Shown piece by piece: positions 2,348 to 22,600 of a stretch of 23,381 bases of DNA. Position 1 is the stretch's first letter. Each line of letters starts with the position of its first letter. The stretch spans positions 1 to 23,381 of the IMG/VR virus record IMGVR_UViG_3300051212_001621. The stretch is one strand, 5' to 3'. A program made the translations under genes and the position numbers. The notes beneath the pieces are model-generated. The model was not told the origin of the DNA. It saw only the letters and a program-made list of their open reading frames with translations, and did no database searches. This stretch comes from a virus.

Positions 2348-2746
2348 GTGGCGAAGACGCTAACTCAAAATTTCAAAGATCTTAATCTTGGATTTAAGAA
2401 GCACCCCGTAACTGACGATTTGATGGTTACGAAGGATGAAGCTGCAATTAAACAAGCAATTGTAAGTTTGTTATTAACAGAAAGAGGCGAAAGACTATTT
2501 CAACCCGAATTGGGTGGTGGTCTTCGCCGTTTTTTGTTTGAACCTTTAGATTATGGAACTGCTGCATTGATTCAATCTGCAATTCGTGATGTTTTACAAA
2601 GATATGAACCACGCATTCGTATTGAATCGTTAAATGCATTTCCAAATCAAGATGAAGATGGATTTGATATTGAACTCACATTTAATATTATTGGTACAGA
2701 ATTTGCACCAATTCAAGTAGAATTCTTCCTGACTCGCACACGATAA
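2348..2746 (+). CDS. 25: Baseplate wedge protein gp25 (T4-like)
   Basis: GTG start at 2348, TAA at 2744-2746, 132 aa: the same length as T4 gp25 as I remember it. The family (gpW/gp25, related to type VI secretion TssE) forms the inner-baseplate wedge joint and helps initiate sheath assembly. Hallmarks seen are SLLLTERGERLFQPELGGG near residues 40-58, a helical middle (LIQSAIRDVLQ) and the E-P-R motif at 87-89 (RYEPRI), which T4 gp25 also has (NYEPRI), followed by a beta-rich C-terminus (FDIELTFNI). GTG was chosen because no in-frame ATG lies upstream after the previous gene and the length fits; no strong Shine-Dalgarno is visible. Its stop overlaps the gp6 start by one base (TAATG), so the two are translationally coupled. 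Confidence 0.95.
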   Translation: MAKTLTQNFKDLNLGFKKHPVTDDLMVTKDEAAIKQAIVSLLLTERGERLFQPELGGGLRRFLFEPLDYGTAALIQSAIRDVLQRYEPRIRIESLNAFPNQDEDGFDIELTFNIIGTEFAPIQVEFFLTRTR

Positions 2747-4551
2747 TGCCATACACACAGCTCAACAATTTAGACTTTAATGATATTAAAGTTGCTCTGA
2801 AGGAATATCTGAGATCAGAGACAGATTTTACTGACTATGATTTTGAAGGATCAACTTTAAGTCAGTTATTGGATGTATTGGCATACAATACTTATTACAC
2901 CGCCTTCAATGCAAATATGGTGGTAAATGAGTTATTTCTTGATTCTGCCACCTTAAGAGATAATGTTGTTTCTCTTGCAAAGCAATTAGGTTACACACCA
3001 AAGTCAATTACTGCATCAAGAGCAACTGTTAACTTTAATGTAGTATTTTCAAACAATCCTCCTCCATATGTTGTTCTAAAGAAAGGAAGCGGATTTATTA
3101 CAAATTATGATGATTCTACCTATCAATTTGTTGTACTAAACGATTATAGGGCAGAAGTTGCAAATAATGTTGCAACTTTCGAAAATATTGAACTTGTTGA
3201 AGGAACGATGATCACTACTAGAACTTTAGTAGAGACAAGTTTAAAGAATCAAAGATTTTTTATTGACAATCCAAGTGCAGATGTGAACACCTTGCTTGTT
3301 AAAGTTTTTCAATCAGCACAGTCAAGTGCATTTGAAGAATATTTAAGAGCTGATAATATTCTAGACCCAACTGTTGAATCAAACAGTCCTGTGTATTTTA
3401 TTAATGAAATTGAAGATTCTCGTTATGAAATTATATTTGGTGATGGCATCTTAGGCAGAAAGTTACAGAATAATGAAGTTGTTGAAATATCATACATCAA
3501 AACCAATGGTAAGGAAGTGAATGGAGCACGCACATTCCTCTTCAGCGGTGTCCTGGAAGACGATGGAGGCACTGTTGATGTACCATTCGTAGTGAATAAC
3601 ATCACAACGATTAGCAAGGCATCTGGGGGCGAGGATATTGAAGGTATTGACAAAATTAAATATCTTGCCCCAAAGTTTTTTTCTTCTCAGAATAGAGCAG
3701 TTACCAAAAGTGACTATGAAGTTATTGCTAGAAACATCTATCCAGCTACGAGTGACATTATTGTTTTTGGTGGCGAAGATCAAGAACCACCGCAATATGG
3801 AAAAGTTTTTCTAGCAATCAAACCATCGGATGCGTCGTTCTTATCAGCATACACAAAGAATGAGATTGTAAAGGCGCTTAAGAAGTATTCAGTTGGATCT
3901 GTTCGTCCTGTTCTTGTAGATCCATCAATTCTGTATGTTGAATTGACATCAGACATCTATTTTGATGGAACAAAGACTGAATTGCTTCCTCAGCAAATGG
4001 TTTCTAAAGTTACGAACTCTTTATTAGAATATCTCAAGACTTCTGCTACAGAAAAATTCAATGGGAAGTTTCGTTATTCTAAATTTGTTGCTGTGATCGA
4101 TGAGTCTGATCAAGCAATCAAATCTAATTTGACATCAGTAACAATGAGGAAAGATTTTTATGCTCAATTAAATTCTTCGTCATATTATGAGATTTGTTAT
4201 CAGAATGCATTTAAAGAAGATTGCGAAGAATCAGTTGTTTCATCTTCTGGATTTGTTGTCCTAGAATATCCAGAATACACTGTCTATTTGGAAGATAGAA
4301 GTGGTAAAATTGTCCTATATAGACTAGATTCAGTTACTGGCGAAAAAATTGTTTTAAACAATGCAGTTGGTGATGTTGATTACTTAAAAGGCGAAGTTAA
4401 ACTTTATGATTTAACTATCATTCAAGGTAGTTTTTCTGATAATCGCATCGAACTGAGAACAAAACCAGCATCATATGATATTTCTGTGAAAAGAGAAGTT
4501 TATCTAGATGTTGACATTGCAAAGAGTAAATTTATCGGATATAAAGAGTAG
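2746..4551 (+). CDS. 6: Baseplate wedge protein gp6 (T4-like, baseplate J family)
   Basis: ATG at 2746 overlaps the gp25 stop; TAG at 4549-4551 followed at once by a second TAG. At 601 aa it is close to T4 gp6 (660 aa). Gp6 dimers form the continuous inner ring of the baseplate and bind gp7 and gp53/gp25. The N-terminus has the family look: YTQLNNLDFNDIK, then DYDFEGSTLSQLLDVLAYNT around residues 30-50 and LRDNVVSLAKQLGYTPKS near 70-87. A J-like core follows with YEIIFGDGILGRKLQNNEVV from residue 227 and SYIKTNGKEVNG, then a helix-strand unit SDYEVIARNIYPA near 322-335. The gap to gp7 is only three bases. The last third (from about residue 490) contains a beta-rich stretch (VVLEYPEYTVYLEDRSGKI) I cannot match to a T4 feature. 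Confidence 0.93.
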   Translation: MPYTQLNNLDFNDIKVALKEYLRSETDFTDYDFEGSTLSQLLDVLAYNTYYTAFNANMVVNELFLDSATLRDNVVSLAKQLGYTPKSITASRATVNFNVVFSNNPPPYVVLKKGSGFITNYDDSTYQFVVLNDYRAEVANNVATFENIELVEGTMITTRTLVETSLKNQRFFIDNPSADVNTLLVKVFQSAQSSAFEEYLRADNILDPTVESNSPVYFINEIEDSRYEIIFGDGILGRKLQNNEVVEISYIKTNGKEVNGARTFLFSGVLEDDGGTVDVPFVVNNITTISKASGGEDIEGIDKIKYLAPKFFSSQNRAVTKSDYEVIARNIYPATSDIIVFGGEDQEPPQYGKVFLAIKPSDASFLSAYTKNEIVKALKKYSVGSVRPVLVDPSILYVELTSDIYFDGTKTELLPQQMVSKVTNSLLEYLKTSATEKFNGKFRYSKFVAVIDESDQAIKSNLTSVTMRKDFYAQLNSSSYYEICYQNAFKEDCEESVVSSSGFVVLEYPEYTVYLEDRSGKIVLYRLDSVTGEKIVLNNAVGDVDYLKGEVKLYDLTIIQGSFSDNRIELRTKPASYDISVKREVYLDVDIAKSKFIGYKE

Positions 4552-4554
4552 TAG

Positions 4555-7500
4555 ATGCCTAAGACTGCTAACCAGATTTCTCTTTTAATTGAGAATCAAC
4601 TTGCATCATTTATCACAGACGAGTATGAGCTTTTTACAAAGTTCGTACAAAAATACTATGAGCAGCAAGAATTAAGGGGTCAACCTCTTGATATCATTAC
4701 AAATCTTGAAACTTATAGAAATATTGATTTTTACGAGAAAGATATTCTCAATAAATTTACCAAGCTAACTCAGTTTCTACAGGATACTGATACTGTTATT
4801 AATGTAGAAACTACAAGTTCATTTCCTGATAGTGGATATTTGAAAATTGATGATGAAATTTGTTTTTACAAATCAAAAACAGAAACGCAATTTCTCGAAG
4901 TAAGTCGTGGCGTAAGTGGAAACACGACACTTGGAGATTTGTATACGAAGTCAATCTTTGTAACCACTCAATCAGATGACCATGTAAACGGATCATCTGT
5001 TTATAACATTAGTAATCTTTTTCTTTTTGCTCTTGTAAAGAGTTTTGAATCTCAATATCTTCCAGACTTCCCAATTTCATATCTGAATCAAGAAGTTGAT
5101 CAAAGAACTCTAATCAAGAATATTGCAGATTTCTATCAATCAAAAGGCACTAGTAATTCTGTCAAATTCTTATTTAAGTGTTTAATTCAAAGTGATCCAG
5201 AACCAGTAGTATATTATCCAAGAGATAATACGCTAAAAGCATCAGAATCCACTTGGAGAAGAAATTATTCTATTAAAGCTAATATCTTTTCAGCAAATCC
5301 AGATGATTTAATTGGTAAACAAATCATCCAAGATTTGGAAGGCAATTATGCTTCAGCAACAGTTGACAATGTTCTATTCAATGGAACATACGATGGTATC
5401 GATTTATATGAACTGATTCTTGCTGAAGAAACTGTTAATGGATCTTTCTTAACTTCATCAAAGACATTTTTAACATCTGCTGTTTCTGCAAACTCTTCTG
5501 TAGTAGATGTCTTCTCTACGCTTGGTTGGGGAGAATCTGGTAAGTTTCGCATTGAAAATGAAACCTTTACATTTGAAAAGAAGAATGTAAATCAGTTTTA
5601 TATCAAAACAAGATCTGGATCTGCTTCTTATTCTGCAAATACATTTGTATATGATTCTGCAAATGTTTTTATAGAAGATAATCCCATTTTAATTCTTGGA
5701 GTATTGTACACAGCAGTACCAAAGATTAAAGTTCCATATCTTTCTGCTGGTGAGCAAATTGAAGTTTCATCTCCTGGTTTTGTTACAATCGATCAAAAAA
5801 TCTTTGATTCCCAAAATAATCTAAGGTGGAAACTTTCTACATCAAAAGTTGCAGGACTACCAGATGTAAATGCAGATGTTTCTGGTGTATTTCAAGATGA
5901 AACTGATTACTATATTGCATCATCTGGATTTCCTTCACATTTTTTTAATTTAGATGTTCCTGTAAGAGATCAAAGACAATTAAGAATTATTCCAAAAAAT
6001 TCTGAACCAACTACAGAAATCTACAAAACAAACCAGGGAGATGTTGGCATTTTTGTAAATGGCATCGTTGCAATGGGTGCTAAAGACGAAGAACAAATTT
6101 TTTCTGGTCCAATTCAAAAAATCTCTGTGTTTGATAGAGGAAGTGGATATGCCAAGCCTCCATTTGTTTTAATTAATGGAGTTCCGAATCTTGCTCGTGC
6201 AAAAATGGCGGGGCAAGTTGTAGAATCTATTATTGTTGATGTCCCTGGAAATTACAATTCTACACCAAATGTAGAGATTGTTTCTGGCAGAAATGGTATC
6301 GTTGCACCTGTTATTACAAATGGAGAAATTACAAGTTTAGTTGTCACAAATCCAGGTCAATTTTATTCTTCTCCACCCATAATCAGAATTACAGACCTTG
6401 CTGGCAAGGGAAGATTTGCAGATTACACTTCTATTGTTTCTCCAGCTGGACAAATTACTGGGTTTATTCAAAGAAGAACTGGAAGTGGTTACACTGCTGA
6501 AAATATTCGTATTGATGTAATTCCAGTAGGAAGTGGTGCAAGAGCAAATGCTTCTGTAAAGAGTTGGACAAAAAACAGGTATTACAAGTATCAGTCTAAA
6601 CTAGATTCAAATAATGGTTATTACATTCCTAACAAAGATCAGTCTCTAGACTATGGTTATGCTTATTATGCTTCTCCAAATTATTTGAGAACAAATGATA
6701 CTGGTGTTGGACATTCTCCTATTTTGGGTTTTGCTTATGATGGAAATCCAATTTATGGTCCCTATGGATATTCAAATCCATTAAACTCTAGTAGTCAGAT
6801 TACTAGAATGACTTCTAGTTATAGTAAGAATATTTCTAGACAAAATGGACCATCAGTATCTCAGTATCCACTAGGAACTTTCTTTGAAGACTATACTTAC
6901 ATTCATAAGCTTGGTTCTTTAGATCAAAACAATGGTAGATTTTGCGTAACACCAGATTTTCCAAATGGAACATATGCATATTTTATCACTGTAGATTCTT
7001 CCAATGATCCAGTATTTCCATATATTATTGGAGATAACTACTATTCGATTCCTAGAGATTCAAACTACAATCAAAATATTTCTCAATCAGATATTCCAAA
7101 AAATGTAATCAGACTCAGAACTGCAGACATTGAAAAGAATGGTGACTTAACCAAACTTTTAATTGATGAAGTAGAAAGAGGAACTGTTACATCTGGCATA
7201 TCCGTTTCTAGTCAACCAAACTTTTCGGTTGGTTGTAAATTAGAAATTGATAATGAATCAACTGGTGGTTATGATGCATCTGCAGAAGTTTCATCGGTAA
7301 AAGGAAAAACAGTTCTATCAATTGAATCACAATCAACCAAATGTTTATTGATTGATCTTTCAACAACCGCGTATCTTTTTGATGGGGACATAATCACACA
7401 AAATGTCACTGGAGCTACTGGTGAAATTGTTGGGGATGTGTTTTCTGGAACAAAATTTGCTCTTAGAAATGTATCTGGAGATTTTTCTAATGGAGATACT

Positions 7501-10500
7501 CTCAGTTCGAGCACTTCTGTTGTCAATTTAATTCTAGACAAAAATTCATCCTATACAGTTGGTGCAGTATTGCAACTAACAGATGGAAAAGTCTCGATTA
7601 TTGCACAAGGAGAAGTTTTAGAATCCACTGTCGGTAAAAACACTGTTAAGGTTAAAGTTAACTCTGGTCAGTTTGTTCCAACTGATGGTTACTATATTAA
7701 GAGCTCCAATCTATTTGATACTCCTGGTTCTGAGTTGTTAGATGTTAATTCTCTAAGTAGCAACTTAAGAATTTTTGAAATTACAGATAATGTAGCAATT
7801 TTAAAAACAGCAGATGCCCATGGTGTTGGCATTGGTGATAAAATCACTGTAGACATTAATCCCAATGATGCTCAAACAACCACAAATTATTATGTAAGAA
7901 GTAGAATATTCCAAAAAATTAAATTTGAATCTCCAGGTGCATCAACTACAATTAATGACAGTGGTATTGGAAGACTATCTCTTCTAAATTCTGGAGAAAA
8001 TTACACTCCTGGAACTTATCAAAATATTGCTTTAGTTGGTGGATCTGGATCTGGAGCAAAAGCAAATATTACAGTTTCTTTTCAAGGAAAAGTAACTCAA
8101 TTTACTATTGTTGATAAGGGAGAAAATTATAGCAAGTATGATATTCTTACTGTAGGAAATTCTGCTTTATTGAAAACAAATTCTTCTACTCCGTCATTAA
8201 AATTATCTGTAGATCATGTTGGACTCGCTCTTCAAGAAAATAAGATTAAAGTTTCCAGTGGCATTGGATTTACAGATGATGATTTTATCAAAATTGGAAA
8301 TGAAATTGTAAAGATTGTCAATAGAACTGGTGATACCTTTACAGTATTGCGTGGACAAAAATCAACAATTGCTATCGATCATTTTGATGGTGCATCTGTA
8401 GAGCTTTTTGATCCTGGTTTTGATCTGCCAAAGGGATTACCACTTGGTCAATCAGTACAAGATCCAAAAATCGAACAATACAATCCAATTACACAAGAAG
8501 CTGAGGTTGTATTTGAATATGGTCAAACACTGGATACTATCAATGCTGTATCTTTGAGTACGGTATTTTTTGATGTAAGTGCTGACACTCGTTTAGTCAG
8601 AGTTGTACAAATTGAAGATCCTATTGAGGTCTTTATTTTTTCAAAAGACAATACCAACTTCATCAGAAATCCTGAAATTGAAATTAAAGAATTTTACAAA
8701 TATAGATTTAATGTCTCCCATTCTTCTATGAATGGAAGAAGTTTTGATATTTCTCCAAGCATTAGTTATAATATTGAGACCCCAGAAAAGATCGACTTAG
8801 GATCAATTGTAGATTTAAAGATTGGTTTTGGTTCAAGAGTATCAACAAATCTATATTCAAATAAGATTCAAAGTAGATATTCTAAGTATTTCTATTATGA
8901 TCGCAATAGAATTACTTCTTCCGAATCTGGCTATTTCAAAGTAATTTCAGATCCTTTGCAGGGCGAGAAAGATTCTTTATATGTAACCGATACAAGTATT
9001 GTGTATGATACAAAAGTATTTGCTCCTCATGATGGTAGTGGTAGTATTTCATATACATCAAAATCTAGATTTTCAATTGGTGAGATAGATACGATTGAGG
9101 TTACCAATATTGGTTCTGAGTATAAAAAAATTCCAATTGTGATTGGAGCATTGCCTACAGAATCATATAGAGCTTCTGCAATTGTAGATATCTCAAATGG
9201 TTCTATTTCTGGTGTACGAGTAATTTCTGGAGGAAGTAATTATTCAAATCCAAGGGCCGTAGTTGATGGAAATGCAGTTCTTGATGTTGTGGTGGATAAT
9301 GGTATAATTACTGGCGTTTTAATTAAACATCCTGGATCTGGATATAATTCCATCCCAGAAGTTAGAATTGTGGAGACTGATGTAAAAATCTATTTGGAAA
9401 GTGAAGATATTGGATTGCCAAGAAATATAAGAATCATCTCAAACGGTGGGTCATATCATACCGATTCTACACTAAGATCTTCATTAAGATCAAATTATGT
9501 TTTTACCGTTTCTAACTTTAGTTCAAATGGATTTGCTTTGGGAGAATCTGTAGTTCAGATTACAGATGGTGTTGAAACTGCCAGAGCTAAAGTTTCTTCT
9601 TGGAGAAATGGTTCGAATATTTTAATTGTTAAGGATGTCACTGGTCTTTTTAGGGAAGACAAAGAGATTATTGGTTTAGCAAGAAGAACTACTGCAAATC
9701 TTGATAGAATTAGATACGCTGAGTTTGAACCAACAATTAAAACATATTTTGATAATATTGGATCATTCGAAGATGATCAGGGAATTGCAAGTTCTTCAAA
9801 TCAAAAAATTACTGATACTTATTATTATCAAGATTACTCGTATGTAGTAAAATCAAGAACTCCAATTAATGTTTGGAGAGATTTAATCAAGCAAACTACA
9901 CATCCAGCTGGATTCCAATTATTTGGAGAAGTTTTGATTGAATCTGATGCTGACATCAGCATGTCAAATAATTCTAAGACTGTTGCTACTAGCGTTATTC
10001 AGTTATGGGATCCTTTAAAAAATAAAATTAGTGTGGTTAGCACCAGAAAAAATATTATAACATCGATAATTAAAACGGAACAACTTAAAGTTGAAAAAGG
10101 TTCTGGATCTATCGCATTAGATACTTTTAGCACAACAGAAATCCGAGCAAAGCGTGTTTATCTGAATGCTGCATTTGATGGAGCATTTACAGATAAAGGA
10201 AATCTTGAAGGAACACAATCATTTGTATTGATTGATGATGATGGCGCGGTCGTTTCTCCATATAATGAACAGGCATTAACAATAACATTAGATGGCATTT
10301 TACAGGAACCTGGATCTGCATATCAAGTTAATGGAAGTATTATAACATTTGCTTCTCCTCCACTTGGTCCAAGCACAGAAGATGGTCAAGAAGTACCTGG
10401 AGTAATATTCTATGGAAGACTATTTGAGTTCAAGAGAGCAGATCTTAATGAAAGATATTTGAAAAAAATTAGAAACATTTATCAAAGATCTGGTACTTGG

Positions 10501-13500
10501 ATTGATGCAGCAAATCAATTAGCAATGAACAAAGCGTTCATTCAATCCGAGACTCTTGGTTATATTAGAGAAAAATATCCAACACTTTCTTGGGGAACTT
10601 TAAGTACAAAATGCTATCGTGATATTGGACTAGTTATTGAAGCACTAGAGCATGATTTGAGATTTGGTGGAAATTTAAAGACAATTGATGCTATTGAATC
10701 ATATTTTGTAGGAGGTACTTTATCTTATATTGATGGAGAGATTCAAGCATCAATTGATGCTTATTCGTATGCAACTAGATTGTGCAAAATTGCAATGAGA
10801 AACTGGGATGTTGTCGAGCGTCAAGCTTCTTGGACTTCGGGGACAGACATTATTGAAATTACAAATACTGATAATGTTGCAATAGGAATGAAGATTAGTG
10901 CTGGCAGAGCTTTTTCGGATACTACAGTAATTCAAGAAATTATTGATAGCAGGACACTTCGTTTAAGTGAAAACTCACTTCCAGGAAATAATATTCCAAA
11001 TGAAAATGCCCAGGTTACATTTATTTGGAGTGGATTAAATACTGGCACTTTTTATGATGCTGCTACTTTAATTGAAAGAAACAAAGAAAATATTCAAAGA
11101 GAAGCATCACATAGAATTTATGATGAATATCCAAAATTTACATATCCAGGTGTTCCCGAGGAAGCATTTAGATTTAAGGATGGTAGAAGATTAATTTATG
11201 AAAATCTTAACAATATTGTATTGGCAGTTATTTCCGAATTGGGTAGTACATTTGGTCCTCAATATGCAACAGATTCTTGCGCCAGAGATTTAAAAATTAT
11301 TCTTTCTGGAATTGCTGAAGATTTGGGTAGAGGATCAAATTCTAACACAATTTTTAATACAAAGGAGTATTTCTTAAATCATGATGCTTTGGAAGGAGAA
11401 GTAACAGAATCTGTCTATGCTTTTGAATATGCAAGAGAGCTTTGCATTGAAGCAATTAATAATAGAGGTTCTTATCAAGATCCAAATATTATTCTTGTTC
11501 CTGACTGCACCAATGTTAATTCTGCAATCACTGTTCTATTTGATATATTAATTGATGCCATTTCTTCAAATACTCAACCAAATATTCCAATTAATACTGG
11601 GATTGTATCCTGGACAAGATCAGAGGATTTCTGTTTTAGAGATACTGGAATCCTAGTAGATGCTGTTGTCTATTCTCTGAGATATGGTGGTAATCAAAAA
11701 ATTGTAGAATTTGCAAATGCATATTTTAATAATTACAAAATCAATCATATCGGAAACGAATTATTAGAGACAATCTATGCATACAATGTTGCAAGAGATT
11801 TGATGATCCTTGCAATGAGGAATCAAATCTCTGGATCAACAATTGTATTTCCATATACAAATTTAGATATTCGTATTGATACACAATCTCCCTATTGTGT
11901 TGAAGTAGAAAGTGCTATTGCCAACTATGCACAAATTGTTGAAGATATTTTAAAAGGAGGTCCAGATAGATTAGATATTGTTCCCGAGAATGAATCTTCA
12001 ACTGGAAATTGGACATCTTTGAGAGTGTATGTCAATAAAAATATTTTACCAGATCAAAATCTACTAAATGGCGTATTCAGAGAGTGTGAAGAGGTTGCTT
12101 CATCTTTAGATTCATTAAATGAAGTAATAAGAAATATCTTAATTACTGGTCCTGGAGCAGTAGAAAAAACAAATCCAGATTATGTTGATAATGAAAATAA
12201 AGAATTTGATCTATATTATCTCGATGGATCACCAGTGATCACTGAAGAGAACGAAAATTTATTCATTGCAATCAGTGGAATTCTACAACACGAACAAGCA
12301 TATTTTATTGATAAATCTCAAACTCCAAACAAAGTAGTTTTTAGTGGAGCTCCAATTTGGGGTCAAGAAGAAAATGTTAAAACTGTTCAAGAACCTCTTG
12401 CAGTAGAAAATATCGCATTACATGGTGTTGGAAATTACATTCGATGTGAATTAGACACATCAGGAATTTTAGATGGATCATCTGGTCCTTTCATTATTCT
12501 AAACACTTCAACAAAAGAGGTTAGAAATATTGATGATTCCAATTATGCACTTGTATTCATAGATGGAATTCTTCAGAGAGAAGGAGACTCTTACACTATT
12601 AATGGTCCAGCAATTAATTTCTCAAGAGACATCTATAAAGAAAATAATGTAGAGATTATTCTTCTATATGGACGAGATATAGAACAAAGTATCACATTAC
12701 ACGATTTTGAACCAACAACCTACTTCAACCGACTAACATTAACAATTTCCGATACATCTCCAAATGATTATACTGATTTGTTTACTTGGTTTAATACAAA
12801 TTATGATAATGAAACTTTTGCATACCAGAAAGATGGATCTAATAAAAATCTAATTGGTAAAATTAAGAGGGTATATAAAGTTAACAACAATACTGTAGAA
12901 CTAGTTCTTTCTGGAAATAATCCAATTTTCAATGGAAGCGAGCCAATTTATGGATCTACTGATTATATCAACTTCAGTGATGAGACAATTTTTGGAGGAA
13001 CATCTGCAACATTAGTTTATGCGTTAGATGAATTTGGGAATCGTAGAATGCAGAGAGATTCTTCTGCATGGTTATTTGATAGTATAAAATCAGATGAATC
13101 ATTCTATGTTCAAAGAAATCTATTAGCAAGGTTGAATGCTGGAGATTCTGTAAAAATTGATGGCGAAAAGAGTTATAGAGAAATTAAAAAATTACCTCAA
13201 TATGTAAATCCAAAAGATTATAATGCAGGTGCAGATATTTCTTCTAAGTTTTATGGTTCAATTATCACAACAAATTATAATGGTTCAACAAAAGGAGTTG
13301 GACTAAGTGCAACATGTGAAATCAATGCAGAAGGAGAAGTAATTAATATTGAATGGAATAGAAAGGATTTAAATCTCTACTACCAGCAAAACATTTTACA
13401 AAAGACAACCGCATATGGTTATGAAACTCCCCCAGTCTTGCATTTTATTCCAGTCAATCAATCTGGAGGTGGAGCTTCTGCTGAGGTAATTGTATCCAAG

Positions 13501-14850
13501 GAACAAATTGTTGATATTGTAATTACAAATAAAGGATCTGGTTATACAGAAGCGCCAAAAATTGTTGTCGCTAGAAGATATAATTTAATTAAAGGTAATA
13601 ATAGAAAAATTGATTCTCTTGTTAACATAAGATTTGCAAATAAGATTCAAAAACAATCTCCAGTATCTGCAAATATTGTATTCGAATTTTCTAGAGGAAT
13701 TGAGTCTATAACTGCGTTTGCAGCTGCAATCACAATTCCAGAAAATAAACCAACTATTTACACAACACTTAATAAAGTAGTAAATCTTGAGAATTTAGTT
13801 ATTTCGAAAGAAATCATTAAATTTGGTCCAACTTCAACTGGTTCCGTATCCATGTTCGGACCAAACGAAAACTCTCCAAAAATTTACAGAACATTTTTAC
13901 TTGATAGAACCGTTGAATCTCAACCATTACTATCAACTAAAGTTGAAAGATCATTTGCTATAGAAACTGGATTTATTGATTTAACAAATCCATTCTCATA
14001 TAGACGAAATTATTCTTCTGGTATTGCTGGACCAGCAGCACCACAATGGAGACCTTTTACCGATTGTGGAAACATCTTATCAACATCAGGAATTCCAGTT
14101 TCTGGTGTTACAATTGAAGAATTGGAAAGATATGGATTTACAATTGAACAGTTAAACAATGCTGTTGTTTCTGGTGGAATTTTTGTTGATGGTGATAAGT
14201 TTAATCTGGCAACTTCATCCATCAATAATTACCTAGTAAGATTGCAAACTTCGCCACTTCCAGATAGAGGAGACTTTACTCCCACCTTACTTGATTCTTC
14301 TTATGTTTCATCATCTGGATATGGAGATCCGACACCAGATGGATATTATGTTGTATTAAATAATGTCATTTACCTTTATATCGCAAATAGTAGCGGGTTG
14401 CCAATTATCAATACTTTCCGTCAAAATATGACAGGAACTGATATTTGGATTGATTGGGGCGAGGGTAGTTTTATCGGTGGTAGATATTCAAATAACAATC
14501 TTACTGGATTTGCAAACTCTCCATATGAAAATAGAATAACTGCTGGCCAGTTTGACTTATTCAATGATGGTTCTCAAGCTGGAGTTGTACTAATTCCAAC
14601 AACACCAGTTCCAAATGGTATTGGAAGATTCAATAGAATCGGGAATTATGATGTTACTTTCAGTCCAACAAATGTGATTGTTTATTGTGACACCGCACGA
14701 TTCCCAACATCTGGAACAATATTAATCAACAAAGAGCAGATTACTTATACAAGTAAGTTGTCGGATCGTCTTCTTGGTTGCACACGCGGTGCCAATGGTA
14801 CTCCTATTGGAACACATGTGGTAGGAGATTACATTAGATTGCTTCAATAA
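4555..14850 (+). CDS. 7: Giant baseplate wedge protein gp7 homologue, 3431 aa, multi-domain
   Basis: ATG at 4555, three bases after gp6; TAA at 14848-14850. T4 gp7 (1032 aa) starts wedge assembly by binding gp10 and later gp8 and gp6. Two blocks match what I recall of T4 gp7: residues 192-255 (DFYQSKGTSNSVKFLFK, then DDLIGKQI; T4 has DFYSTKG..KFLFK..DLVGQ) and 1752-1795 (YVVKS, WRDLIK at 1774, HPAGF at 1783; T4 HPVGF). About 1500 residues lie between them. Other modules seen: 'sG-x-I-x-x-E' units at about 85-135, 316-372, 1229-1288 and 3376-3431; GSGY repeats at 526-660, 1144-1200, 1516-1640 and 2990; a YHYH domain at about 675-832 (GHSPILGFAYDGNPIYGPYG from 719; NGRFCVTP at 793); GILQ units near 1909, 2570 and 2665; three helical repeats at 2020-2423. 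No signal peptide or membrane segment. Identity as gp7 is strong by synteny and motifs; the extra domains may be surface decoration or fibre attachment. Confidence 0.88.
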   Translation: MPKTANQISLLIENQLASFITDEYELFTKFVQKYYEQQELRGQPLDIITNLETYRNIDFYEKDILNKFTKLTQFLQDTDTVINVETTSSFPDSGYLKIDDEICFYKSKTETQFLEVSRGVSGNTTLGDLYTKSIFVTTQSDDHVNGSSVYNISNLFLFALVKSFESQYLPDFPISYLNQEVDQRTLIKNIADFYQSKGTSNSVKFLFKCLIQSDPEPVVYYPRDNTLKASESTWRRNYSIKANIFSANPDDLIGKQIIQDLEGNYASATVDNVLFNGTYDGIDLYELILAEETVNGSFLTSSKTFLTSAVSANSSVVDVFSTLGWGESGKFRIENETFTFEKKNVNQFYIKTRSGSASYSANTFVYDSANVFIEDNPILILGVLYTAVPKIKVPYLSAGEQIEVSSPGFVTIDQKIFDSQNNLRWKLSTSKVAGLPDVNADVSGVFQDETDYYIASSGFPSHFFNLDVPVRDQRQLRIIPKNSEPTTEIYKTNQGDVGIFVNGIVAMGAKDEEQIFSGPIQKISVFDRGSGYAKPPFVLINGVPNLARAKMAGQVVESIIVDVPGNYNSTPNVEIVSGRNGIVAPVITNGEITSLVVTNPGQFYSSPPIIRITDLAGKGRFADYTSIVSPAGQITGFIQRRTGSGYTAENIRIDVIPVGSGARANASVKSWTKNRYYKYQSKLDSNNGYYIPNKDQSLDYGYAYYASPNYLRTNDTGVGHSPILGFAYDGNPIYGPYGYSNPLNSSSQITRMTSSYSKNISRQNGPSVSQYPLGTFFEDYTYIHKLGSLDQNNGRFCVTPDFPNGTYAYFITVDSSNDPVFPYIIGDNYYSIPRDSNYNQNISQSDIPKNVIRLRTADIEKNGDLTKLLIDEVERGTVTSGISVSSQPNFSVGCKLEIDNESTGGYDASAEVSSVKGKTVLSIESQSTKCLLIDLSTTAYLFDGDIITQNVTGATGEIVGDVFSGTKFALRNVSGDFSNGDTLSSSTSVVNLILDKNSSYTVGAVLQLTDGKVSIIAQGEVLESTVGKNTVKVKVNSGQFVPTDGYYIKSSNLFDTPGSELLDVNSLSSNLRIFEITDNVAILKTADAHGVGIGDKITVDINPNDAQTTTNYYVRSRIFQKIKFESPGASTTINDSGIGRLSLLNSGENYTPGTYQNIALVGGSGSGAKANITVSFQGKVTQFTIVDKGENYSKYDILTVGNSALLKTNSSTPSLKLSVDHVGLALQENKIKVSSGIGFTDDDFIKIGNEIVKIVNRTGDTFTVLRGQKSTIAIDHFDGASVELFDPGFDLPKGLPLGQSVQDPKIEQYNPITQEAEVVFEYGQTLDTINAVSLSTVFFDVSADTRLVRVVQIEDPIEVFIFSKDNTNFIRNPEIEIKEFYKYRFNVSHSSMNGRSFDISPSISYNIETPEKIDLGSIVDLKIGFGSRVSTNLYSNKIQSRYSKYFYYDRNRITSSESGYFKVISDPLQGEKDSLYVTDTSIVYDTKVFAPHDGSGSISYTSKSRFSIGEIDTIEVTNIGSEYKKIPIVIGALPTESYRASAIVDISNGSISGVRVISGGSNYSNPRAVVDGNAVLDVVVDNGIITGVLIKHPGSGYNSIPEVRIVETDVKIYLESEDIGLPRNIRIISNGGSYHTDSTLRSSLRSNYVFTVSNFSSNGFALGESVVQITDGVETARAKVSSWRNGSNILIVKDVTGLFREDKEIIGLARRTTANLDRIRYAEFEPTIKTYFDNIGSFEDDQGIASSSNQKITDTYYYQDYSYVVKSRTPINVWRDLIKQTTHPAGFQLFGEVLIESDADISMSNNSKTVATSVIQLWDPLKNKISVVSTRKNIITSIIKTEQLKVEKGSGSIALDTFSTTEIRAKRVYLNAAFDGAFTDKGNLEGTQSFVLIDDDGAVVSPYNEQALTITLDGILQEPGSAYQVNGSIITFASPPLGPSTEDGQEVPGVIFYGRLFEFKRADLNERYLKKIRNIYQRSGTWIDAANQLAMNKAFIQSETLGYIREKYPTLSWGTLSTKCYRDIGLVIEALEHDLRFGGNLKTIDAIESYFVGGTLSYIDGEIQASIDAYSYATRLCKIAMRNWDVVERQASWTSGTDIIEITNTDNVAIGMKISAGRAFSDTTVIQEIIDSRTLRLSENSLPGNNIPNENAQVTFIWSGLNTGTFYDAATLIERNKENIQREASHRIYDEYPKFTYPGVPEEAFRFKDGRRLIYENLNNIVLAVISELGSTFGPQYATDSCARDLKIILSGIAEDLGRGSNSNTIFNTKEYFLNHDALEGEVTESVYAFEYARELCIEAINNRGSYQDPNIILVPDCTNVNSAITVLFDILIDAISSNTQPNIPINTGIVSWTRSEDFCFRDTGILVDAVVYSLRYGGNQKIVEFANAYFNNYKINHIGNELLETIYAYNVARDLMILAMRNQISGSTIVFPYTNLDIRIDTQSPYCVEVESAIANYAQIVEDILKGGPDRLDIVPENESSTGNWTSLRVYVNKNILPDQNLLNGVFRECEEVASSLDSLNEVIRNILITGPGAVEKTNPDYVDNENKEFDLYYLDGSPVITEENENLFIAISGILQHEQAYFIDKSQTPNKVVFSGAPIWGQEENVKTVQEPLAVENIALHGVGNYIRCELDTSGILDGSSGPFIILNTSTKEVRNIDDSNYALVFIDGILQREGDSYTINGPAINFSRDIYKENNVEIILLYGRDIEQSITLHDFEPTTYFNRLTLTISDTSPNDYTDLFTWFNTNYDNETFAYQKDGSNKNLIGKIKRVYKVNNNTVELVLSGNNPIFNGSEPIYGSTDYINFSDETIFGGTSATLVYALDEFGNRRMQRDSSAWLFDSIKSDESFYVQRNLLARLNAGDSVKIDGEKSYREIKKLPQYVNPKDYNAGADISSKFYGSIITTNYNGSTKGVGLSATCEINAEGEVINIEWNRKDLNLYYQQNILQKTTAYGYETPPVLHFIPVNQSGGGASAEVIVSKEQIVDIVITNKGSGYTEAPKIVVARRYNLIKGNNRKIDSLVNIRFANKIQKQSPVSANIVFEFSRGIESITAFAAAITIPENKPTIYTTLNKVVNLENLVISKEIIKFGPTSTGSVSMFGPNENSPKIYRTFLLDRTVESQPLLSTKVERSFAIETGFIDLTNPFSYRRNYSSGIAGPAAPQWRPFTDCGNILSTSGIPVSGVTIEELERYGFTIEQLNNAVVSGGIFVDGDKFNLATSSINNYLVRLQTSPLPDRGDFTPTLLDSSYVSSSGYGDPTPDGYYVVLNNVIYLYIANSSGLPIINTFRQNMTGTDIWIDWGEGSFIGGRYSNNNLTGFANSPYENRITAGQFDLFNDGSQAGVVLIPTTPVPNGIGRFNRIGNYDVTFSPTNVIVYCDTARFPTSGTILINKEQITYTSKLSDRLLGCTRGANGTPIGTHVVGDYIRLLQ
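6130..6525 (+). repeat. GSGY beta-repeat cluster in gp7 (four copies)
   Basis: Four consecutive copies of a 35-45-residue unit with a turn G-[SNQ]-[GYF]-Y followed by P-x-[IV]-x-[IV]: DRGSGYAKPP (residue 526), VPGNYNSTPNVEI (561), NPGQFYSSPPIIRI (597), RTGSGYTAENIRI (about 641). It is a protein-level repeat; DNA copies have diverged. Further copies lie near 7984, 8110, 9100-9440 and 13522. Confidence 0.75.
9100..9450 (+). repeat. GSGY beta-repeat cluster in gp7 (second cluster)
   Basis: Copies NIGSEYKKIPIVI (residue about 1516), SGGSNYSNPRAVV (1556), HPGSGYNSIPEVRI (1590) and a weaker NGGSYHTDST (1627), at 35-40 residue spacing, just before the HPAGF block of the gp7 core. Confidence 0.7.
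10612..11823 (+). repeat. Three copies of a ~63-residue helical repeat inside gp7
   Basis: Copies at 10612-10803 (residues 2020-2083), 11278-11463 (2242-2303) and 11632-11823 (2360-2423). Each starts C-x-R-D and follows with a helix, a [DS]-L-[RG]-[FYR]-G-[GS]-N turn, a Y-F, then E-x-x-x-[SI]-x-x-[AY]-x-x-x-A-R-[LD]-[CL], ending A-[MI]-[RN]-N. Copies 1 and 2 are preceded by a DAA-x-x-x-x-x-NK-x-x-I-Q module (residues 1984 and 2168); C-x-x-V-x-SAI modules follow copies 2 and 3. I have seen similar repeats in cyanophage tail and fibre proteins; function unknown. Confidence 0.8.
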
Positions 14851-14899: not shown

Positions 14900-16660
14900 A
14901 TGGCAGCTATTATTTCGGAAAAATTTAGAATTTTTAACGCGAAACAATTTTTAGAATCATTAAGTGAAGGCGCGAATGATGCTGACACTGCTCGTACACG
15001 AATGTATTTCTTCGTTGGAAGATCTGCTCAATGGGCGGCATATGTAGAAATCTTTAATGTTACTGGAACATTTGAGCAAGGAGAAACTGTATCTGGTGGC
15101 GGGTGGTCTGGAACAATCGCTGAAGTAAATGAAAACAGTTTATTGATTCAGAATATTCTTCCAAATTCATCTACGACTCCACCATTTGGAACTACAATTA
15201 CTGGTGCTGATTCCTCTGCTAGTGCAAAGACTGGAGTTTATAGATATGCAACAGAAGAAGCCCCTCCTGCACCACTAGACAACCACGCAGAGACACTCTC
15301 GATTTATAATGAATTGATTGCTGCTAAGAGAATTACTGCTCCTTTTGCAAGACTGGTGATTCCACGATATAACTGGAATCTATCTCTAAATCCGAAATTT
15401 GATATGTACAGACCATCATATGCACCGACAGCAGGTGGTGGTGGTTCAATTGGAAAGCAAACTGCTACTGGGCAAACAAGTCTAGCAGAAGCAAAATTCT
15501 ATGTTATGAACTCAAGATACGAAGTATTCAAGTGTCTTTACAATGGTGAGAATGCTGCAAATCCAAATGGACAAAACGCAACATACGAACCAACTTCCCA
15601 ACCAACATCAGGACAGGGAACTTTTGCAAACGGTATTTTCACAGAACCTTCTGGAACTGCAAAATACATTTGGAAGCATATGTTTACAATTCCAACTGGA
15701 GATGTACTAGCATTCCTTTCAACCGACTTTATTCCTATTGTAGAATCTACAGAGTTGAGCAGAACACAGGTAAGAGCACTTGCAGTTAATGGTGCTGTTC
15801 ATGTTGCTGTGGTAAGAAACGCTGGAAGCGGTCTACCAGCATCTGCAACGCTTTACACTGCTGTTAAGGGTGATGGTAGCGGAGCAGTTGTAAAGTTCAC
15901 TACAGATGGTTCTGGCGCTGTTACATCAGCAGAAATGCAATCAGTAGGAAGTGGTTATACATATGGCAATCTGAGACTTGTTACTGGAGAGGTTTTCACC
16001 GATGCAGGTCTAACTGCAGCAGCGGCAGCTTTTACTGGCAAAGCATTCATTGAACTCGTTATTTCGCCAACTGGTGGTCATGGTTTTGATCCAGAAATGG
16101 AACTGTTTGCAAAAAGAATCATGACAAATGTTCGTCTAACTTATGACGAAGGTTCTGGTGATTTCCCAGTTGACAATGATTTCCGTCGTATTGGAATTGT
16201 TCAAGATCCATATACATACGGAACAACTAATTATGCTGTTTCATCTACTCTCCGTGGTACTTATTCCATGGTTGTTTCGAACGCAAATTCAAACTACCAA
16301 GTTGACGAAGATATTTTCCAACAAGTAACTGGTGGAATTGCTTATGGTAAAGTCGTTTCGTGGGATAGTTCAACTGGAGTTCTGAAGTACTATCAATCAC
16401 CAGATTTACATTCACATCAAGGAGTTTTGAGAAGATTTGCTTCTAATGCGGCAAATGCTGTCATTGGTGCTAACTCAACAACCTCTGGAAATGTAAATAC
16501 ATCGGCTAATGGAACAATTTCTGATATTGCATTCACTGGTGGTTTGGCTAATCCAGAAATCGAACCAAACTCTGGAGAAATCATATACATAGAGAATAGA
16601 AGACAGATTACAAGAGCTGCTGACCAAATTGAGGACATCAAGCTAGTAATCGAATTCTAA
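14900..16660 (+). CDS. 8: Baseplate wedge protein gp8 (T4-like, enlarged)
   Basis: ATG at 14900, TAA at 16658-16660, 586 aa against 334 in T4. Gp8 forms dimers on the wedge bound to gp7/gp10 and then gp6. Conserved landmarks, with remembered T4 equivalents: FFVGRSAQWA near 37 (T4 FITFGRSEPWS), LVIPRYNWN near 152 (VIPRRDWG), YIWKHMFTIP near 255 (YVWEYLFEIP), RRIGIVQDP near 430 (RQISIITNP), and the C-terminal SGEIIYIENRRQITRAADQ followed by IEDIKL (SGEMIYMENRPPI..). The extra length is inserted modules: an F-x-x-GE-x-V unit at about 58-100, a GSGY segment at about 305-397 (GSGAV, VGSGYTYGNL) and a second F/Q-type unit at about 466-500. It has its own tandem late promoters. The 27-base gap to the next gene contains only GGTTGAG just before its ATG. 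Confidence 0.93.
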   Translation: MAAIISEKFRIFNAKQFLESLSEGANDADTARTRMYFFVGRSAQWAAYVEIFNVTGTFEQGETVSGGGWSGTIAEVNENSLLIQNILPNSSTTPPFGTTITGADSSASAKTGVYRYATEEAPPAPLDNHAETLSIYNELIAAKRITAPFARLVIPRYNWNLSLNPKFDMYRPSYAPTAGGGGSIGKQTATGQTSLAEAKFYVMNSRYEVFKCLYNGENAANPNGQNATYEPTSQPTSGQGTFANGIFTEPSGTAKYIWKHMFTIPTGDVLAFLSTDFIPIVESTELSRTQVRALAVNGAVHVAVVRNAGSGLPASATLYTAVKGDGSGAVVKFTTDGSGAVTSAEMQSVGSGYTYGNLRLVTGEVFTDAGLTAAAAAFTGKAFIELVISPTGGHGFDPEMELFAKRIMTNVRLTYDEGSGDFPVDNDFRRIGIVQDPYTYGTTNYAVSSTLRGTYSMVVSNANSNYQVDEDIFQQVTGGIAYGKVVSWDSSTGVLKYYQSPDLHSHQGVLRRFASNAANAVIGANSTTSGNVNTSANGTISDIAFTGGLANPEIEPNSGEIIYIENRRQITRAADQIEDIKLVIEF

Positions 16661-16687: not shown

Positions 16688-19600
16688 ATGCCTCAAAAAA
16701 CTAATCTAAATGTAGCACCTTACTACGACGATTTTGATACAGATAAAAATTTTTATAAGGTGCTTTTTCGTCCTGGATATTCAATTCAGGCGAGGGAGTT
16801 AACTCAGCTTCAGTCTGTTTTACAGAATCAAATTGAGCAATTTGGTAAGTATGCATTTAAACAGGGAGAACTTGTAATCCCTGGAGAAGTAGCGTTTAAC
16901 AATAAATTACCTTTTATTAAACTATCTTCGGTTTCTGAAATTCCAGTTAATCAAGATGGTCAAATTGTATACAAAAAATACGACATTACCCAACTTAAGG
17001 ATAGAAAGGTTAGAGGTTTAACATCTGGGGTAATCGCAACTGTTGTATCAGCAGAAATAGCTACCGAAACTTCTGCTGATGTTTTATTTGTAAACTACAC
17101 AACTAGTGGTGATTCTGGTGATGAAGAAACATTTAGACAAGGAGAAACCTTAGAAGTAGTTGATGGTATCAACACACCTCTCTTGGTTGTTGGAACCGAT
17201 GGCAGTGTTTTACCTACAAGCATTCAAATAACAAATCCAGATACTGCTGAAGTTTCTTCATTAGAAAGTCCAGCAATGGGTTATGCCTCCGCTGTAAAAG
17301 TTGAAGAAGGTATCTATTTTGTAAATGGGTATTTTGTAAGAAATGATGCACAATTACTAATTGTTGACAAATATTATAATTCTCCATCCGCACAGGTAGG
17401 ATTCAAAATCGAAGAATCGATTGTAACTCCAGAGCAAGACGAAAGTCTATATGATAATTCAATTGGATCTTCCAACTACTCTGCACCAGGAGCACATAGA
17501 CTAAGTATTAAATTATCTCTTGTAAAATATTCTTTAGATGAAAAAACTGATAGAAATTTCATCAAAATTCTATCTATTAAAAGAGGATCCGTTCAGAGTC
17601 AGGTTGTTCAGACAGATTACAATTTACTAGAACAAACACTAGCAAGAAGAACATATGATGAATCTGGTGACTATGTTGTTGATAATTTCTCCCTAGATGT
17701 TAGAGAATATTATCAGAAAGATGGAAATCTAGGGATTTATGGAAAAAATCCAGATGGAACAGTCAATGGATTATCAGAACAAGACGCATCCGAAAAATTG
17801 ATTGCCAGCATTGGTCCTGGAAAAGCATATGTTAGAGGATATGAGATTGTTAACAAAGAAACAAAGTATCTTGAGGTTAACAAGGCAAGAGAAACCCTGA
17901 ATAGAGAAGACATTAGAATTAAGACTCAGGGACTTCCAACATATAAAATTACAAATACATATAATACTTTACCACTGAATACAGAGGGATCTCAGCTTAC
18001 TGCGTATCCAGATGTATTTTTATTAGGCAATTTTAATGATGGAACAGTAGGACTGAATAATACAGAATCTTCTACAGCATCAAAGCAAACTCTCAATAGA
18101 AGGGGAGAGTTTTTTGATATCAACACTGGTATTAAAACAATTTACTTACAAATTGAAAATAATTATGCAACACTAGTTGCTGGTTTGACTGGATCCAACT
18201 TTGTAACTGAAATTGGAACTTTGTGGTTCGTTCAGGCAAGAAATTCTGACGATACTCCATCAGTTGTCAATAGTGTTGATGTTATTTCTTTTTCTAGAGT
18301 TCCTAGACTGGAAGTTTCTGCAGATCCAAGTGTAACCTTCTTGGAAATTACAGTTACAGCAAGAAAAGATTTATTGGATCAATTTTTATTAGAATATGAT
18401 GATAGAGAGGCAGCTAAGAGAAGACTACTCTATATCACTAGAAATGATGCTCAAAATCCATCGTCTATCCCATTCGGAACTATTGTAGATTATAATGAAA
18501 CTTTTACACCAGTAATTGGAATTGCAAAACCAAGTAATTTTTCTCTTCTAGAAAAAGGATCTGGGTTTAACTCTGATACTGATGTTATTGTTTCCAAAGG
18601 CAGACTTTCTGATGGATCTTCTGTCTATAATGCAACATTTGGATTTTCATACTTTAATCCATATTTCTTCACAAAAATTCAACTAGATGAACCGATTACA
18701 GTTGTTGGTAGTTTTACAGTTGGTCAATATGTTTATGGATTGACTTCTGGTGCATATGGCGTTGTAGAGGGATCTTTGACAGGAGCATTTACATCATTAA
18801 AAACATTGATGATCAAGTCACTTTTTGGAAATTTTGTAAGTGGAGAAGTTATTGTTGACGAAAAAGGCAATTCGTTAAGGATTGCAAAAGACAACACAAT
18901 TTCTCATTTCATTGTCAATACTAGAGGTGCGAATTATGTAAACGGAACTAGTTTGAGAATTGATGGTGTCACTGTAGATGATTCGAAAGTAAAATTGAAT
19001 TTTGATGGTTCTGGTGGAATTTACAAGGCAGAAATTTTAGATAGAAGCTCTGTGTCTACTGAATATTCAAAACCACCATTGGTTGAGGTAATTCAAGGAA
19101 CTGGTGGTGGTACTCCAGTTGGATCTGTCATCACTCCAGTTCTTGTTAGAAATGCGGTTACCACATATACTCCACAAAATGTTAAGTCATTTTATTCGGA
19201 ATTTGGTTCTGGAAATGCAAACACCTTTACATCTGATATTGAGATCAACAAAGAAAGATATGCAGAGATTGTTTCTGTCACAGAGTTTACATTTAGTGGT
19301 TCTAAAGGAAGAAAATATATCGAGTGTAATGGATTTGGTGGAGATGCTACAACATTCTTGCAGCAAGGAGATCTTGTACAGTTTACAGATGACTCATCAG
19401 AGTTGATTAGAGCGATTGTACAGCAAGCAACAAAACCAGAGGGTGTTTATAAATCCAGAATTTATTTTGATAGATCTCTCCCAGAGAATGTGACCAATGT
19501 CAGCGTCGTTCGTGTTAGACCATCGATTGATAACTACAATAAAGGAACTTTGCTTTATAAAGTAGGATCGAATCAAATTAGTTCAATTGTTGCTAGCAGC

Positions 19601-22600
19601 GAAGATTCCAAGATCACTTATTATATTAGAAGAGATTTTGTTTCTACTGGTGCAGGGGGAGAAGGTAAGATCACTTTCTCTGCTCAACTACCATTTGGAA
19701 CTCAGAGATTTGTTTCTTTTAGCGAGAGTAATTTCTTGGTAACTGTTTTGGATCCAGGTGATGCTCCATCCAATATTGTCAAGACTGGCGATGTTGTCTA
19801 TGTTACGCAGTCAAATGTTGAGATTAAAGCATCGACAGATGCTTCTAGTGGATTGACTTCTGGTAGCGTTAAGTTAAATCTGCCAGCAAATTATTTTGGA
19901 GATATTCCAATTGGTGGACAATATCCAACTTTAAAGGTAACAGCAACTTTAGAAGTATCTAAGGGTAAACCAAGATTAAAAACTGCAAATATTAATAAGA
20001 GAATCATTATTGAATCTACTGGAGATAGAGTTATTCCATTTAGAGGAAGAGATTATGATAGTGAATCTTTGAATGTGTATAGTTATGCAGACGCATTTAA
20101 ATTGAGATATGTTTATGAAGGATCTCCATCAGAACCACCAACTGTCGATAGAAATGGAAATCTTGTAAACGGTATCGATATTACAAATAGATTTACATTT
20201 GATGATGGTCAGAGAGATACAGTTTATGACATCTCAAGAATTGTCTTAAAACCAGGATTCAATCCTCCAACAGGTCAACTTGTCATTGCATTTGATTATT
20301 TTGATCATACATCTGGAGATTTTTGTACAGTTGATTCATATCTGCATGAAGCTGGAGTTGGTTCAGAAGAGATCCCATCATATAATTCACCAGCACTTGG
20401 TAAAATTTCGCTAAAAGATGTGTTGGATTTTAGACCAAAAATTGATAACAATGCAATTGTTAGCGGATTCCAGAACAAATCAATTCTATCTGCACCAAAT
20501 AGCAGATCATTTAATGGTACTGGTGGAGTTGTATCTAGTACTCCTGCTCCAGATTCTAATCTTGAATATACTTTTGCCTTTACGCAAACACAATATCTTG
20601 ATAGGATTGATGGTTTGTTCTTAAATAAAAAAGGAGAATTTTTAATTAAAGAAGGAAATTCTTCTCTGAATCCATCAAAACCAGATCCAGTAAGTGATGC
20701 GATTCCACTTTATTATATGTACATCCCAGCTTTTACTCAAACAAGTAAGGATGTGAGAATTACTGCAGTTGATAACCGCAGATATACAATGAGAGATATT
20801 GGAAAACTTGAAAAGCGCATTGAGCGACTTGAATATTACACCACTCTCAGCATTTTAGAACAACAGGCTCTAAACATGCAAATTACAGATTCTGTTGGAA
20901 TGAATAGATTTAAGAGTGGATTTATTGTAGATAATTTTGAATCTCATAAAATTGGTTCATTGCAATCTTTAGATTACAAATGCAGCATTGACACACAGCA
21001 GTCTGTTTTGCGTCCACAATCAAAAGAAGATTCATTTAATCTAATTGAAATTAATACTAGAGATGATCAGAGATCAATTTCTGGTTACAGAAGAACTAAT
21101 GATGTAATCACTCTTCCATATACAGAACTTGAACTGCTTGGAAATAATTTTGCAACCAAAACAATCAATCCAAATCCATTTGTTGTTCTTCAATATGTTG
21201 GAGATTCATTTATTTCTCCAGCAGTTGACAATTGGTATGACACAAATGTTGCTCCTCTGGTAACGGATAATAACACAAATTTATACTCAATCTTCTTAGC
21301 TAAGAATGAATTGCAAGATGCTTTCTCTAGTCTTCATAATTCATACCAAATTAATTGGATGGGTGCAAATCAATCTTTCTACAATATCGGATCTTTTGCA
21401 GAAGTAAATTCCAGCATTTCAAATTCTACGGTGACAAATGCATCTGTAGGAAGCTCTTCAAACATCAGTCCTCAGAATAATGAACTGGCTAAAGGAGTAT
21501 CAACAAAGGGTGTTGGAACAAATGTCGTAACTACTGCACTTTCATTCTTTGCTAGAAGCATTCCAGTAAGATTTACTATCAATCGTCTCAAACCAAACAC
21601 TCGTGTTTATGTGTTTATGGAGGGAAGAGATATTTCAAGATGGGTAAATCCAGATTTGAAATATACTGGTATTGCGGCAAACTCCTTATCTGCATTTAAC
21701 GGATCCATCACTACAGATAGTAATGGAAATGCAAGTGGATTAATTTTAATTCCAGCTGGAAAACCACCAAGAGAAAATTCTGTTTGGACTGGAGATATCA
21801 ACACAGTTTCTTACGATGAAGAAGCTGCTGAAGTGAGATTTACTACTGGAGTAAAGACTATTAGATTTACTTCTAGTTCAACCGATGCTGATAAAGAAAC
21901 TGTTGAATCTTTTGCTGAAGTAAAATTCTACGCAACTGGATTAGTTCCAGAAAATCCAGCATCAATCATTTCAACCAAACCAGCATTCTTCAAGTCAAAT
22001 GAAGGAACACAAATTGTAGATAGCAATACTGAAAATCCAGTCAGACCAAATCCATGTGCTCAAACATTCAAAGTTGATAACTTTGAGGGTGGAGTATTCG
22101 TGACTGGTGTTGATTTATTCTTCAAAAAGAAATCAACAAACATTCCAATTCGTGTTTACCTTACCGATGTTGTGAGTGGAAAACCTGGAAAAAATATTAT
22201 TCCAGGAACTCAAAAAATTCTTACTCCAGAGACTTTCTTAAAAGTTGTCGCAAGCGATACTTTGACACTTCAGGTTGGTGAAACTGTTACTGGAGGAAAG
22301 TCAAATGCATCTGGACCAATTTCAAGACTGATTGACAAAAATAATATCGAAATTATTCCAAGTACTACAGGAGTTCTAACTCTAACCAATGATCAAGTGT
22401 ATACTTTGGTATTGAGTAATAACAACGGCAAGAAATTTGTACAGGACGAATCTCTGTCTGTCACCTCAATTACACAATATAATAATGCAAATAATACACA
22501 ATTAAATTTAAAGATTTGCAAAGATTCTGGAAGAGTTACTGATTTAAAAGTCACTAACACTGGAAGTAATTACCAGTCAGCAACAATTACAATTGAGAGT

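Follow-up and report, generated by a model that had tools for sequence, protein, structure and literature searches.

A 3431-residue gp7 orthologue of a T4-like cyanophage baseplate wedge, apparently expanded at domain V and with predicted phycobiliprotein-fold repeats

The question raised by this locus is whether a protein of 3431 aa can be gp7 of a T4-like baseplate wedge and, if so, where its many additional residues are placed with respect to the gp7 core. The window (the whole stretch of viral DNA analysed, 23,381 nucleotides) carries this protein as one uninterrupted ORF (4555-14850, plus strand; phrog_4406, E 0). It is preceded on the same strand by gp25, a baseplate wedge or sheath initiator protein (2348-2746; PF04965, E 3.8e-16; phrog_261), and by the baseplate wedge protein gp6 (2746-4551; phrog_219, E 1.7e-204; PF21379), and it is followed, again on the plus strand, by the baseplate wedge protein gp8 (14900-16660; phrog_438, E 6.4e-162; PF09215). 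The gene order is 25-6-(3431-aa ORF)-8, with the ORF as the sole gene between gp6 and gp8, and genes 6-7-8 of T4, where gp7 is NP_049765, stand in matching order. The next ORF (16688-23380, more than 2231 aa) extends past the end of the window; relatives carry VrlC-like giant proteins in this place.

Short motifs of T4 gp7 were located in the 3431-aa ORF at residues 192 (DFYQSKG), 204 (KFLFK), 251 (DLIGK) and 1783 (HPAGF), the T4 counterparts being at residues 733 (DFYSTKG), 745 (KFLFK), 780 (DLVG) and 884 (HPVGF). Spacing of the outer motifs was 1591 residues in the former protein as opposed to 151 in the latter, and 1644 residues lie C-terminal of the HPAGF motif. The first-pass annotation of this DNA had placed two motif blocks at residues 192-255 and near 1783, followed by another 1650 or so residues, and both the positions and the second large addition at the C-terminus were as described; its figure of about 200 residues for the distance between the blocks in T4 gp7 is 151 when measured between the outer motifs. 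In a single-sequence search of all window ORFs with residues 640-1032 of T4 gp7, the 3431-aa ORF was the best match (E 0.004, compared with 2.1 for the runner-up) and was matched in two short collinear stretches (residues 188-215 and 1761-1803). Single-sequence searches of the PDB with each half of the protein gave no match, and profiles were needed. With half-profiles of the family built from ten relatives each and 177,635 PDB sequences, T4-type gp7 was the best match of the N-half (E 3.4e-4 and 5.3e-4) and also of the C-half, but weakly in the latter case (E 0.055, HPxGF aligned). Because the T4 gp7 search ranks this ORF first and both half-profiles place gp7 at the top, the likeness of the motifs is not ascribed to chance. 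E-values from iterated searches within a set of 19 proteins were inflated and were kept out of the evidence.

Both gp7 blocks were also found within a single gene located after gp6 in phages of other hosts. Thus, at a fixed database size of 177,635, matches to the two blocks were noted in order in Sinorhizobium phiM7 (2e-23 and 7e-15), Caulobacter Cr30 (6e-18 and 6e-16) and Stenotrophomonas Moby (3e-11 and 2e-9) and contiguously in Nitratidesulfovibrio SRB7757 (2e-16 and 2e-20), while weaker matches to both blocks were seen in Dickeya XF4 (284 aa, annotated gp7) and Vibrio Kuja. The last quarter of PF23786 (Baseplate_wedge) matched residues 1741-1793 of the 3431-aa ORF (E 5.9e-5 with the fragment as query, a score short of the curated cut-off). 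Several relatives are already named gp7 or wedge initiator in GenBank, including those of P-HM2 (ADO99864), ACG-2014f (AIX41761), P-SSM3 and S-SZBM1 (UNH61325), and the cyanophage gp7 relatives fall in PHROG families 4406 and 2885; the PHROG label of the 3431-aa ORF is 'virion structural protein'. On a separate point of annotation, PHROG families 3465 and 460 give the Ackermannviridae relatives of gp7 the label 'head closure Hc2' (e.g., L002, 3422-4276). This label is doubted because the genes in question sit directly after gp6, and it is probably an error that has spread into GenBank annotations.

The fold was approached through a natural split relative of 896 aa (L099, 5001-7688), which is 100% identical to gp7 of Methylophilales phage Melnitz-3 and was modeled from an alignment of 36 relatives. 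In the AF2 model, confidence was low for the core (pLDDT below 50 in residues 1-43, 143-189, 198-237 and 609-895) and good for the inserted beta domains. Matches below 1e-3 in a Foldseek search of 350,542 chains were to T4-type gp7 only (5iv5_BJ, 1.2e-4 and 9f4a_A0, 1.5e-4), and model residues in the range 230-617 were aligned by VIA with residues 760-850 (domain V) of T4 gp7 (Z 9.2). Given the low confidence of the modeled core, it is the domain V barrel that carries this fold match; since the aligned range spans both sides of the insertion, the barrel is predicted to be made from both flanks, which is what an insertion emerging from within domain V should give. Taken with gene order and the profiles, these results identify the 3431-aa ORF as the gp7 orthologue of a T4-like cyanophage baseplate wedge. 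In the same Melnitz-type model, residues 363-506, which are part of the insertion, resembled a domain of the T4 sheath protein gp18 (3fo8; Z 8.8 by VIA), and residues 261-308 of Moby gp7 (L005, 7767-9278) matched Gp18_dom_I (PF22639), so a sheath surface domain may have been reused in gp7 of Melnitz-type phages and Moby. No structure of the baseplate of a marine T4-like cyanophage was found.

From the profile and motif matches, the plus-strand layout of the protein can be drawn as follows. An N-terminal helical block common to phiM7, Cr30, SRB7757 and Moby in profile alignments (residues 1-60, 4555-4734) is followed by core block 1, which was recognised by motifs, profiles and the T4 gp7 search (DFYxSKG..KFLFK..YYPRD..K.S; residues 192-232, 5128-5250), and by the first part of a domain-V-like beta module that includes DLIGK (residues 233-300, 5251-5454), assigned from profile A1 and from the structural match of the Melnitz-type relative to T4 gp7. 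The A1 match stops at residue 299 and the match of profile A2 begins at 1673, which delimits an insertion of residues 301-1672 (5455-9570). Core block 2 (..D.YYQDYSY..HPAGF; residues 1673-1825, 9571-10029), placed by profiles and PF23786, precedes a C-terminal extension (residues 1826-3431, 10030-14847) that is without gp7 core similarity and matches tail-fibre families of PHROG. Within the insertion, a YHYH domain (PF14240) was identified at residues 645-815 (6487-6999, plus strand; E 2.8e-30; 106.2 bits, compared with a cut-off of 25). Secondary matches of profile A1 also indicated four copies of a small beta module (LKIDDEI..Y.......RG), at residues 67-126 (4753-4932, plus strand), 302-360 (5458-5634), 1224-1270 (8224-8364) and 3372-3416 (14668-14802).

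The insertion boundaries, which the first-pass annotation had proposed to compare across cyanophage gp7 proteins, fall at a place that varies in length throughout the family. In the Limestonevirus-type gp7 of XF4, block 1 ends at residue 221 and block 2 starts at 236, leaving about 15 residues between them; in SRB7757 the core blocks are contiguous around one beta module; and in T4 the place between the blocks is occupied by domain V (residues 766-861, PF21427; 96 aa). Gaps between the two profile matches were 143 residues in Moby, 238-275 in Melnitz-type proteins (about 70 contigs), 418 in Cr30, 704 in phiM7, 1304-1667 in the Synechococcus type, 1851-2209 in others and 2570 in syn9. In the 3431-aa ORF the profile matches are about 1370 residues apart, and the core is followed by about 1600 more. 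Tail length beyond the core changes independently of the gap, ranging from 0 (S-B68) to about 1930 residues. A large gap, of 1300-2600 aa in most cyanophages, was therefore there as anticipated, but its site is domain V, which already measures 96 aa in T4. Because T4 carries this domain at the same point, the insertion of about 1370 residues represents, as judged from sequence comparisons, a known variable site enlarged to an extreme degree.

Relative to T4 gp7 (PDB 5IV5 and 5HX2; Pfam Gp7 domains V, VI and helical), the 3431-aa ORF has in common the position between genes 6 and 8, the blocks DFYxxKG/KFLFK/DLxG and HPxGF and, as modeled in a split relative, the domain V fold. In the T4 protein, however, about 640 residues precede the core, whereas the 3431-aa ORF is without this arm and has its added residues at domain V and at the C-terminus. 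No Pfam match to T4-type N-terminal peripheral domains (fn3 and others; T4 residues 1-640) was obtained in the 3431-aa ORF, where the core begins near residue 1. These domains are not taken to define gp7 because the 284-aa Limestonevirus protein, the basis of PF23786, is also without them; that protein has both blocks, likewise in this order, 15 residues apart and without extra modules. Cyanophage gp7 proteins named 'baseplate wedge initiator' share the architecture of insertion and extension and differ in length, and the insertion is family-wide in marine T4-like cyanophages (482 phage records in the family). The first-pass description of a gp7 core split by a very large insertion was thus borne out by the collinear T4 matches, the half-profiles and gene order; that of the wedge initiator as a scaffold holds insofar as a split core carries internal and C-terminal additions, although the feature belongs to the whole family and is partly annotated already.

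The most surprising part of the protein, which was absent from the earlier finding, lies in the C-terminal extension. Three repeats were delineated there on the plus strand: residues 1978-2088 (10486-10818; KCYRD at 2019; profiles, Foldseek and repeat alignment), residues 2199-2337 (11149-11565; SCARD at 2241 and a second Cys at 2318; profiles, Foldseek and VIA) and residues 2349-2470 (11599-11964; FCFRD at 2359 and a second Cys at 2448; profile and repeat alignment). The Pfam family Phycobilisome (PF00502) matched excised residues 1851-2648 at 5.7e-7 and 30.1 bits (cut-off 22.2). The twelve best PDB matches of a profile of 33 repeats were alpha chains of phycocyanin and phycoerythrin, and all 60 of the matches listed for profile A6, built from 25 fuller repeats, were phycobiliproteins or derivatives of these (E 4.4e-5 to 0.024). 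An AF2 model of residues 1940-2492 had a mean pLDDT of 69.6, with values of about 70-90 in the repeats; its best 50 Foldseek matches were phycobiliproteins in 50 of 50 cases (E 0.03-0.2, probability 0.94-1.00), and VIA superposed the predicted repeat on a phycobiliprotein over 139 residues (Z 16.1, rmsd 2.6). Since sequence and structure agree, homology is the best reading, and the extension is predicted from the profiles and the model to contain three repeats of globin-like fold that are homologous to phycobiliproteins. The fold is common to both, and many phage repeats carry Cys-x-Arg-Asp and a second Cys; identity, on the other hand, is about 20%, and the phage repeats have an invariant Asn after GG and are part of a virion protein. 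With respect to the search itself, PF00502 scored 21.7 bits, below the cut-off, on the whole 3431-aa protein as opposed to 30.1 bits on the excised stretch (10105-12500), and domain matches can be missed in this way when giant proteins are scanned whole.

Repeats of this kind were noted in 334 phage records, all named Synechococcus, Prochlorococcus or cyanophage with the exception of one marine virus, and a single genome often has them in several of its tail proteins. Other large tail ORFs with repeats include those of S-PM2 (3340 and 3792 aa), S-CAM1 (3700 aa) and S-H9-1 (3438 and 2942 aa). A scan of bacterial genomes with one repeat returned no relative and no donor, and neither a split gp7 core nor phycobiliprotein-like domains in phage tails were reported in the non-subscription literature searched or mentioned in the GenBank gp7 records consulted. 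Two gp7 relatives have been detected as proteins in virions. Virion mass spectrometry recovered 71 peptides from S-SZBM1_208 (6619 aa, 724 kDa; PMC9146016), the gene for which (149248-169107) encodes the N core, the C core and helical repeats, and 91 peptides from ORF122 of S-CREM2 (PMC10665884), which is located at the gp7 position (77594-83407, about 1937 aa).

Two alternatives would undo the assignments made above. The less probable, which we consider very nearly untenable, is that the 3431-aa ORF is an unrelated giant tail protein with only short gp7-like motifs. The confinement of direct T4 similarity to short stretches and the noncommittal PHROG label would suit such a protein, but not its place as the sole gene between gp6 and gp8, the chain of intermediates with both blocks in order, a fold search with a relative that returned gp7 only, or the gp7 names of relatives in GenBank. 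Convergence of helical bundles, as an explanation for the likeness of the repeats to phycobiliproteins, is also most improbable. Helical models can reach a high Z by chance and the pLDDT of the repeat modules is only about 70-90; nevertheless, sequence profiles by themselves put phycobiliproteins first (60 of 60 listed), PF00502 exceeded its cut-off, the best 50 structural matches were of a single family and the repeats are confined to phages of cyanobacteria.

Two further alternatives accept both assignments and concern the use of the added parts. A role of the repeats and the other modules as decorations for adhesion or receptor binding is possible but rather unlikely: the modules do recur in tail-fibre-like proteins of cyanophages, tail-fibre PHROGs are matched by the C-terminal part and one short motif is weakly similar to the N-terminal repeat in a K1 depolymerase (E 0.076), but a Pfam search detected no known adhesin domain, lectin and depolymerase domains included, and T4 gp7 is not a receptor binder. 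The adhesive or protective domains predicted in the first-pass annotation accordingly found no support, the recognisable modules being the YHYH domain and the phycobiliprotein-fold repeats, neither of which is a known adhesin. A more doubtful proposal is that the repeats bind a bilin made by phage or host through a Cys84-like or Cys155-like residue, or both, loaded by CpeT, the T-type bilin lyase of the phage, and that the baseplate or tail is thereby pigmented for light sensing, photoprotection or stabilisation. The CxRD of the repeats does align with the chromophore site Cys84-x-Arg86-Asp87 of phycocyanins. Among 57 unique repeats, counted without selection (alignments A6 and A7 were picked from repeats mostly with cysteines), 40 had the Cys, 35 the Arg, 49 the Asp and 30 the full CxRD, and one Asn was shared by every one of the 57; CxRD was present in all three window repeats. 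In most full repeats, as in window repeats 2 and 3, a second Cys occurs, about 75-110 residues downstream, and lines up, in a weak alignment, with beta-Cys155 of phycoerythrocyanin. CpeT was found in 14 of 17 cyanophage genomes with repeats and in none of five without (22 records, W06-W27; Fisher 0.0021, kinship ignored). T-type lyases load beta-Cys153/155 (PMC2327270, PMC10452541), and for this reason the action of phage CpeT on phage repeats is a reasonable guess but nothing beyond that; what purpose phage bilin genes serve in Prochlorococcus hosts has been called unclear (PMC2984593). Against the proposal, Cys is absent from 17 of the 57 repeats, the two Cys could serve other roles, and bilin reductases were not associated with repeats in the 22 cyanophage genomes (Fisher 0.31), P-SSM2 having a reductase and lacking the repeat. 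The co-occurrence with CpeT, which takes no account of phylogeny, may also mirror a single clade split: P-SSM2 and other large genomes form a group among those lacking repeats, so that few independent events would lie behind it. The fuller claim, that virions of marine cyanophages carry bilins covalently on these baseplate and tail repeats with CpeT as the lyase, is more doubtful again.

Plain structural use of the added parts is the most likely, ahead of adhesion, spacing and pigment binding. We return to the combined reading, which we hold with high but not full confidence, of a gp7 wedge subunit with its core in residues of about 1-300 and 1673-1825, an insertion at the domain V site, an extension with three phycobiliprotein-fold repeats, an outward periphery and repeats derived from the host. 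In T4, gp7 is a monomer present in six copies that forms with gp8 a platform for gp6, and its peripheral domains shift in the hexagon-to-star change (PMC3004832). By analogy, the core of the 3431-aa protein would bind gp6 (and gp8/gp53) and start wedge assembly, and six copies would radiate from the baseplate. Its periphery would be formed by the insertion and extension, which would project outwards and take over the work of the N-terminal arms of T4 gp7. The periphery is probably built from new domains because those of the T4 type are absent from the N-terminus and new ones are present at domain V and the C-terminus; thus, relative to T4 gp7, it seems to have moved from the N-terminus to a loop and the C-terminus. 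The repeats may have been taken from cyanobacterial hosts and then multiplied as stable helical building blocks of the tail, where they could serve as spacers or interaction surfaces.

The split core as such is a property of the family, and the gp7 names in GenBank predate this analysis. What it indicates is that the T4-like wedge initiator can accommodate over 1,000 residues at a single fixed point, domain V, and therefore that the same small core underlies baseplates as dissimilar as those of Limestonevirus, T4 and cyanophages. The phycobiliprotein-fold repeats would represent a light-harvesting fold of the host reused as a building block of the virion. Their co-occurrence with CpeT makes testable the long-standing question of what phage bilin genes are for, as posed for Prochlorococcus phages (PMC2984593). 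If virions do carry bilins, these genes would serve the particle itself, structurally or in light sensing, whether in place of a part in light harvesting by the host or in addition to it.
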